From assembly GCF_000299415.1 (NCBI RefSeq), contig NZ_AMPG01000001.1:868001-932000 (forward strand): a stretch of 64,000 bases of DNA, given 5' to 3'. Position numbers and translations under genes: made by a program. This DNA is from Candidatus Microthrix parvicella Bio17-1. GTDB taxonomy: Bacteria > Actinomycetota > Acidimicrobiia > Acidimicrobiales > Microtrichaceae. The notes under the pieces are model-generated. The model was not told where the DNA came from. It saw nothing but the letters and a program-made list of their open reading frames with translations, and ran no database searches. Shown one piece after another: positions 38,520 through 40,130 of this stretch (its first letter is position 1; each line of letters begins with the position of its first letter).

Positions 38520-38533
38520 CGAACACATGTTCG
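38520..38533 (+). promoter_or_regulatory. LexA-binding SOS box
   Basis: CGAACACATGTTCG is a perfect palindrome of the Gram-positive/actinobacterial SOS box type (CGAAC-N4-GTTCG). It lies 114 bp upstream of the ATG chosen for the DUF222/HNH gene. DUF222/13E12 genes in mycobacteria are known members of the LexA regulon, so DNA-damage induction is likely. Confidence 0.85.
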
Positions 38534-38646
38534 GTATCATGGTTGTTGTCATCACAGCTCGTTTCGGCACCTCATCCGAGGTTTATCAACCGGGTGAGGT
38601 TTCGGAGGCGGACGAGTTCTTCGAGTTTCAACGGGAGGTGAGTTCT

Positions 38647-40130
38647 ATGAATTGCTTGTGCAGAGGACTCTCTGCCGGTCGAGCCGTATCCGGATTGGAC
38701 CTGGCAGCCTTGGATGCCGAGCTGACCGCGTTGGCCAAGGTCGACTCGGCGGTCGCCGCCCGCCGATCGCTGGTGGCCGCCGAGGTGAAGCGCCGTCGAA
38801 GTGATCCAGCGGATCGACTCACCAAAGCCGGGGGAATGTCGTCCCGGGAGGCGAACCGGGCAGCCAAAACCGCCGAAGGGTTGGAAAAGTTGTCCAAAAC
38901 CCGTGAGGCGCTCGCGGCTGGCGAGATGAGCAAGGGCCAGGCCGAGCAACTCGCGTCACGCATGAACAAACCGGCGCTCGCCAAGCACGTGCGCGCCAAC
39001 GAAGAAGCGTTGTTGGAGCGAGCAAGAGGCGAAAGCACCGACGAGTTCGCCCGCACCATGCGTAAGGACGACCTCGACGGTTCACCCGACGGCGGCAACA
39101 CCCAGGCCCGGTGTCAGCGACGGGCCCGCATGGCCTCCATGTGGATCGATCCTGACACCGGCATGCATCACCTGTTCGCCAAGTTTGATCCGGTCACCGG
39201 CGCCCGGGTCTCAACCCGCTTCAGGCCATGGTCGACAAACTTTGGAGGGCCGAGAACCTGGCTGGAGGCGTCCGAAACAAGCGTCAGGTCGATCAACGCC
39301 GCGCCGATGCCCTCGAAACCCTCATCTGCCAGTCCGCCGGCACAAGCACAAGCACCGGCACGGGCACCAGCACCAGCACCAGCACCAGCACGAGCAAGGG
39401 CGATCAGGTCGACCCGCACAGCGGCAGCACCCCCAACGACAGCACCCCCACCAACGACACCGCTGCCGTGCCGACTCCTGACCACACCTTGCCCACCGCC
39501 CAAGCTCCGCTGCCACCCCCTCCAAACCACACGCAACTGCTCGTCATCGCCAACCTCGACCTTCTCAGCCAACAACTCGGCGCCGGCACGCTCGAAGACG
39601 GCACTCCGCTGCCCATCGACACGATCGCTCGGCTGGCCTGCGATGCCGAGATCATCCCTGCCATCTTCGGGGCAAAGGGCCAACCGTTGTGGCTCGGCCG
39701 CCGAACACGCCTCGCCACATCGGCTCAAAGGCTGGCAGTCACCGCTCGCGATCTCGGCTGCATCGTCTGCCACGCCTCCCCCGAGTTCTGCCAGGTTCAC
39801 CACATCACCTGGTGGTCAGCGGGCGGCGGCACCGATCTCGATAACCTTTGCATCGTCTGTTCAAGGCACCACACCATGATCCACGAACAAGGCCTCACCA
39901 TCGCCAAGACCTCCGACGGCATGAAGGTTCAACCACCCCCTGCCAGGGCGTTCCGAATGGTCACCCAACCGCCCGACGGCACCGGCGACCCACCATTGGA
40001 TACCCAGCAACCGAACAGGTCACAGCAACCAGACACTCGGCAACCAGACACCCGGCAGCGGCCAGGCCCACCCCAACGGCTATCCCGCCAATCTCCCGGC
40101 GGGCCACCCCGGGATGCCACAGCAGCGTAG
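38647..40130 (+). pseudogene. DUF222/HNH endonuclease (13E12-type), frameshifted
   Basis: The N-terminal DUF222 domain is read in one frame from ATG 38647 (Shine-Dalgarno GGGAGGTGA at 38633-38641) up to about 39213. There the frame runs DPVTGARVSTRFRPW and loses family sequence. The family sequence resumes one base earlier in phase (LQAMVDKLWRAENLAGG) at 39218 and continues to the HNH domain: CIVC, FCQVHHITWW, TDLDNLCIVCSRHHTMIHE, with catalytic His, Asn and Cys ligands. One missing base near 39211-39218 (TCAACCCGCT) explains it. A Ser/Thr/Gly repeat region (about 39341-39400) separates the domains. The frame may open at 38527, but that codon lies inside the SOS box. It may be a true mutation or an assembly error. 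Confidence 0.85.

Follow-up and report, generated by a model that had tools for sequence, protein, structure and literature searches.

The window (the whole 64-kb stretch of DNA that was analysed) contains a gene of the DUF222/HNH type, in front of which, 58 nt downstream of an aminotransferase gene (PF00155), lies the LexA/SOS box CGAACACATGTTCG (38520–38533), read directly from the sequence. A −35-like hexamer, TGGACT (38512–38517, + strand), and a −10-like hexamer, TATCAT (38535–38540, + strand), stand on either side at a distance of 17 bp, so that the box fills the promoter spacer. The −35 hexamer is imperfect. Further downstream, a Shine-Dalgarno-like sequence, GGGAGGTGA (38633–38641, + strand), precedes an ATG at 38647; a second in-frame ATG, at 38527, lies inside the box. 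The N-terminal DUF222 part runs from 38647 to 39213 on the + strand and is 64% identical to a paralogue in the same genome, L012. In a zone at 39205–39225 (+ strand) homology switches out of the 38647 frame, as judged from the frames and from L012, which reads through this place in one frame. The C-terminal part (39195–40130, + strand) lies in a different frame and comprises the end of DUF222, a Ser/Thr/Pro-rich linker, the HNH domain and a tail. The HNH nuclease domain (39759–39887, + strand) has its C..C zinc-site and H-N-H residues. A 6-bp tandem repeat (39340–39396) encodes the Ser/Thr linker ahead of this domain, and a 50-bp tandem repeat of 2.3 copies (40172–40287) follows just past the gene. 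Beyond it are a nickel superoxide dismutase gene (41163–41702; Sod_Ni, 4.8e-35) and an ORF (41660–42124) that is divergent from it, overlaps it and resembles, by eye, a signal-peptidase-type maturation protease.

A sequence-only reading of this DNA had reported a LexA-type site upstream of a 13E12-type gene. The box is exactly where that reading placed it, and is the only perfect match to CGAAC-N4-GTTCG (CGAACNNNNGTTCG) in the 64 kb. The gene behind it, on the same strand, matches DUF222 (PF02720, 5.7e-10) and HNH (PF01844, 5.6e-5) in its C-terminal part; the N-terminal part alone had no Pfam match, whereas its relative L012 does match DUF222. Compared with the M. tuberculosis LexA motif, TCGAAMRYWTGTTCGA (PMC4181829), the window box agrees at all but the two outermost bases, where the flanking A...G replaces the T...A of the mycobacterial consensus. 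When the window was shuffled, CGAACN4GTTCG occurred at a mean of 0.11 per shuffle, with at least one site in 11 of 100 shuffles, and the box by itself is therefore suggestive but short of decisive. L012 also carries a LexA box. The leaders of the two genes are unalignable apart from the box and promoter block, which reads TTGACG-GT-CGAACGCATGTTCG-T-TATCAT in L012 and TGGACT-TA-CGAACACATGTTCG-G-TATCAT in the window, a pairing read by eye, since automatic alignment left these blocks unpaired; the −10 hexamer is identical in both.

The whole genome contains 12 distinct CGAACRNNNGTTYG sites, three of them directly upstream of DUF222 genes. Others are found at lexA, recA, a dnaE2-like polymerase gene and a gyrB-type gene, and another at a locus with imuA'/imuB-like ORFs (recognised by eye; the ORF tested had no Pfam match). 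LexA is encoded in the genome (LexA_DNA_bind, 5.9e-25), as is RecA, and each of the two genes has a box of its own. The recA box, CTTGACCGAACAGGCGTTCGTAACTACACT, is of the same spacer-type design as that of the window, and recA has, besides, a separate PafBC-type promoter, as in mycobacteria. Only two genes of the genome match the WYL domain; they are neighbours and form a PafB/PafC-like pair.

We searched for the box across the DUF222 family. Eight of the 16 DUF222 matches in the window's genome have a box with at most one mismatch; three near-identical copies (L014, L015 and L016; 90–95%) lack both the LexA box and the PafBC-type promoter. The sequence-only reading had proposed a scan of related genomes. 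Among 114 DUF222 upstream regions from this genome and 20 related genomes, 67 have the box with at most one mismatch (22 perfect), compared with 4 of 113 stretches inside the genes, and five other palindromes occur only 0–2 times each in the same upstream regions. One genome contributes about 16 close copies, so these gene counts are not independent. The fair estimate of box frequency is that from a phylum-wide draw with one gene per genome: the family was present in 55 of 150 genomes, 30 genomes were each represented by their best gene, and the box was found in 17 of 28 with a stricter upstream stretch and in 20 of 30 with a wider one. At loci from named records the box is present in 49 of 61, a set that overlaps the 114 regions. 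Two records (L234 and L235) are titled Bifidobacterium breve, which seems incorrect, as their DUF222 genes are 94% identical to that of Actinobacteria bacterium IMCC26207.

SOS control of 13E12 genes in M. tuberculosis is already known. The 13E12 HNH genes are members of its LexA regulon (PMC4181829, PMC5005354), as those two papers also relate of the REP13E12 genes with reference to Davis 2002 and Smollett 2012, and the response of five HNH endonuclease genes to mitomycin C is recA-dependent (PMC8151990). Like the M. tuberculosis 13E12 (REP13E12) genes, the family described here combines DUF222 with HNH, has a LexA box of the same consensus upstream, and is multicopy, the M. tuberculosis genes being thought to resemble mobile elements. 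Unlike them, the window gene belongs to the Microtrichaceae lineage, is frameshifted and has its box in the −35/−10 spacer, and in its relatives a PafBC-type promoter and the box are fused at the start codon. On the evidence of these upstream sequences, the SOS link of DUF222 genes extends far beyond mycobacteria.

The predicted LexA control is well supported by the enrichment of the box upstream of DUF222 genes and, judged by comparison, the putative LexA operator inside the window promoter is real. There is very little to be said for a chance palindrome in a non-functional leader: the shuffled windows yield one site per 64 kb in 11 of 100 cases and the gene behind the box is broken, but the paralogue keeps box and −10 though the rest of its leader is unalignable, the genomic sites cluster at SOS genes and DUF222 genes, and the enrichment across the family is strong. 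We infer that LexA binds the window promoter and that DNA damage induces it. With a LexA dimer seated on CGAACACATGTTCG, exactly between −35 and −10, RNA polymerase would be denied access to the promoter; upon damage, RecA on single-stranded DNA would trigger LexA self-cleavage, and the DUF222/HNH gene would be transcribed from a start near 38547, giving a leader of about 100 nt and translation from the ATG at 38647. Our main reading, to which we assign a probability of roughly 0.77, is that a LexA-repressed promoter stands before a decayed DUF222-HNH (13E12-type) gene whose family consists of damage-controlled dispersed cassettes.

The boxes upstream of DUF222 genes fall into two promoter designs. 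The window promoter has the geometry of the second, in which the box occupies the spacer: among 36 boxes outside the start-codon class, TANNNT is found at box+15/+16 in 17 and TTG at box−8/−7 in 15, and at other offsets downstream of the box TANNNT occurs only 0–1 times. In the first design, comprising 38 genes from this and related genomes, an in-frame ATG or GTG, mostly reading M-F, lies inside the box; TANNNT directly adjoins the box, 13 nt ahead of the start codon, in 26 of the 38, and TGTC stands exactly 22 nt before the box in 25. We considered the conserved TGTC as a −35 element and rejected this, as its distance to TANNNT fits TTGTCRgtg-N8-TANNNT instead. The RecA-independent promoter has been published as TTGTCRgtg-8nt-TANNNT, in the form in which PMC5656591 cites it, and has been assigned to PafBC (PMC8223512).

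The window gene is counted among the 38 because its ATG at 38527 is in frame, and we therefore considered whether it has a leaderless mRNA that is translated from this codon inside the box. The in-frame position relative to the DUF222 part and the existence of the 38 genes, the window gene included, speak for such a start. However, the window lacks both a TGTCR element and a TANNNT immediately ahead of the box, a good −10 follows just past the box, a Shine-Dalgarno sequence precedes 38647, and in L012 a stop interrupts the stretch from box to gene. We consider a start codon inside the window box improbable, and retain the spacer-type promoter with translation from 38647.

TGTCR-N11-TANNNT is present upstream of 59 of 119 DUF222 genes from this and related genomes, whereas eight other spacings gave 0–2 occurrences and three altered motifs gave none; the background in the window's genome is 2 in 316,618 nt. 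The 64-kb window itself has no such element, including at its DUF222/HNH gene. Both elements are found at 38 of the 119 genes, the LexA box only at 38, the PafBC type only at 21 and neither at 22; the corresponding numbers for 28 genes of the phylum draw are 8, 9, 5 and 6. In the order, roughly half of the DUF222 genes that we studied carry a predicted promoter of the mycobacterial RecA-independent (PafBC) kind. This observation is new here; the PafBC publications cited (e.g. PMC5656591, PMC8223512) name no DUF222 or 13E12 gene, which is not proof of novelty. Across Actinobacteria, most DUF222 genes carry a putative LexA switch, a PafBC-type damage promoter, or both.

Often, the PafBC-type promoter runs straight into a LexA box with the start codon inside it. 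Of 99 related genomes, 29 contain this fused pattern; the reversed pattern occurs in none of them. Of the 30 loci (one per genome, and a second in one genome), 21 continue into DUF222, 18 directly and three in another frame, while five run off the contig end and four precede other genes, namely ruvC, two dnaB-like genes and one HTH gene (identified by eye). We therefore rejected the idea that the fused element is specific to DUF222. The ruvC and dnaB-like helicase genes behind it, all in related genomes, are at L315, L342 and L343. Dual damage control as a principle resembles that of genes with a RecA-NDp promoter and an SOS box (PMC8223512). It also resembles recA, which has two damage promoters, the PafBC-dependent P1 and the LexA-controlled P2 (PMC5656591, PMC11804915): DUF222 genes use the same two elements, and recA of the window's genome has both. 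Whereas recA has two separate promoters, many DUF222 genes fuse both elements into a single one with the start codon at its end. This joining of PafBC-type element, LexA box and start codon makes for a compact natural design.

In the genome G008 about 16 DUF222 copies with around 91% identity are located on many contigs. For most pairs, the shared sequence starts about 22–60 nt before the box and ends about 4–30 nt past the stop codon, most often 4–8 nt past it. The promoter and operator therefore lie inside the dispersed unit, and because they do, damage control travels with the gene. The number of DUF222 copies varies from 0 to 29 among related genomes. We joined the flanks of the cassettes of a further genome, G001, and searched for them in two congeners. 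At three sites the neighbours stand together without a cassette (L056 in both congeners, L041 and L123 in one), and the site of L132 appears to be occupied in a congener; divergence blurs the exact junctions and any target duplications. Either gain or loss may explain each case.

Ordinary segmental duplication would also produce similar copies if only the flanks diverged afterwards, or if the genes were homogenised by gene conversion. Consistent with this, copies of about 91% identity are not very recent, and in some G008 pairs the alignment continues upstream for as much as about 115 nt more. However, in most pairs the similarity breaks off sharply, close to the promoter on one side and a few nucleotides past the stop codon on the other, the copies are spread over many contigs, and sister species keep both neighbours, and no cassette, at three sites. 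Duplication of this kind is rather unlikely to account for the paralogues. We favour the reading that the DUF222-HNH family consists of small dispersed cassettes of promoter, operator and ORF, which would be under LexA control, PafBC-type control or both. A more specific proposal, tentative and in our judgement well short of probable, is that these are minimal mobile cassettes of about 1.5 kb (promoter, LexA operator and ORF), which a single fused element with the start codon inside it, TGTCR-N11-TANNNT-CGAACRYATGTTCGA, would connect to both actinobacterial DNA-damage pathways, and which would copy themselves to new intergenic sites upon joint induction of the nuclease and the host's recombination genes by damage.

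The sequence-only reading had taken 38520–40130 to contain a working gene and the SOS link to be old and functional. Age is borne out by enrichment of the box in genome, family, order and phylum. Function does not hold for the window copy, because its coding sequence carries a frameshift and the one close paralogue that it has is broken as well. There is no single intact reading frame: the frame changes near 39205–39225, with the DUF222 and HNH parts in different frames, and for this reason we class the gene as a decayed member of the family, whose product would lack the HNH domain. The N-terminal part has a single close relative among 61 genomes, the same-genome paralogue L012 (also L172); 60 related genomes yielded no orthologue of this subfamily, and a search of named genomes yielded no relative of the C-terminal part. 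L012 has a premature stop elsewhere and has lost its HNH part, so that both members of the subfamily are damaged. The 3′ part of the L012 locus contains a replacement stretch that looks, by eye, like the C-terminus of a tyrosine recombinase.

The gene might nevertheless be intact in nature, if the frameshift were an assembly error or were bridged by programmed frameshifting. The assembly is a draft, and past the shift the frame is open and the HNH residues are intact. Nonetheless, the only close paralogue is independently broken, by the premature stop and the missing HNH part, and inspection by eye revealed no slippery heptamer at the shift. We regard an intact gene as unlikely. We conclude that this copy is probably dead, that the subfamily of the window gene and L012 appears to be decaying, and that the operator has outlived the window gene.

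As for the protein, the HNH domain is the sole part with sequence relatives among solved structures (IscB); DUF222 has none there. Free-standing HNH endonucleases and IscB are alignable in the HNH domain; unlike them, the family also has DUF222, which has weak fold matches to Noc/ParB DNA-binding domains. An AlphaFold model of an intact paralogue, L006 (pLDDT 88.9), has no significant fold match in the PDB, with weak matches to Noc/ParB DNA-binding domains and ScoMcrA, and because the matches are not significant we draw no function from it. The weak Noc/ParB likeness of the model would fit DNA binding by DUF222. Three intact paralogues from the same genome matched no PADLOC defence model. Phage records contain HNH fragments only, and hence give no sign of phage origin.

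The DUF222/HNH genes of Actinobacteria form a highly multiplied family that still lacks an explanation. Damage control is common in it across the phylum, which frames the question of whether its members are mobile genes set off by damage or effectors with which the host responds to damage. The main rival to our preferred reading is that they are host DNA-repair or programmed-death genes rather than selfish cassettes, with damage control serving the host. A repair function has been proposed for the 13E12 genes of M. tuberculosis (PMC4181829), an HNH nuclease of M. smegmatis, which may or may not be akin to DUF222 proteins, cuts DNA and kills (PMC9416677), and the fused promoter also stands at ruvC and dnaB-like genes in relatives. 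However, copy number ranges from 0 to 29 between related genomes, dispersed copies share ends near promoter and stop codon, orthologous sites are both occupied and empty, and decayed copies exist. We consider a host role less likely than not. The role that we prefer as likeliest for the family is that of a DNA-damage-timed nuclease whose copies, each with its own switch, would spread through the host genome. The phylum-wide extension, the fused PafBC/LexA promoter and the location of the switch inside the dispersed unit are of specialist interest.

LexA boxes of the window's genome also precede genes outside the family. One lies shortly upstream of the gyrB/parE-type gene (L024:1501-1514) and one shortly upstream of an exonuclease/GIY-YIG-like gene, recognised by eye (L025:1501-1514). 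A further perfect box (L028:1501-1514; G000:C5:21047-21060) lies directly upstream of a DNA methyltransferase gene (N6_N4_Mtase, 5.5e-9), and its position suggests a damage-controlled restriction-modification or orphan methylase locus.
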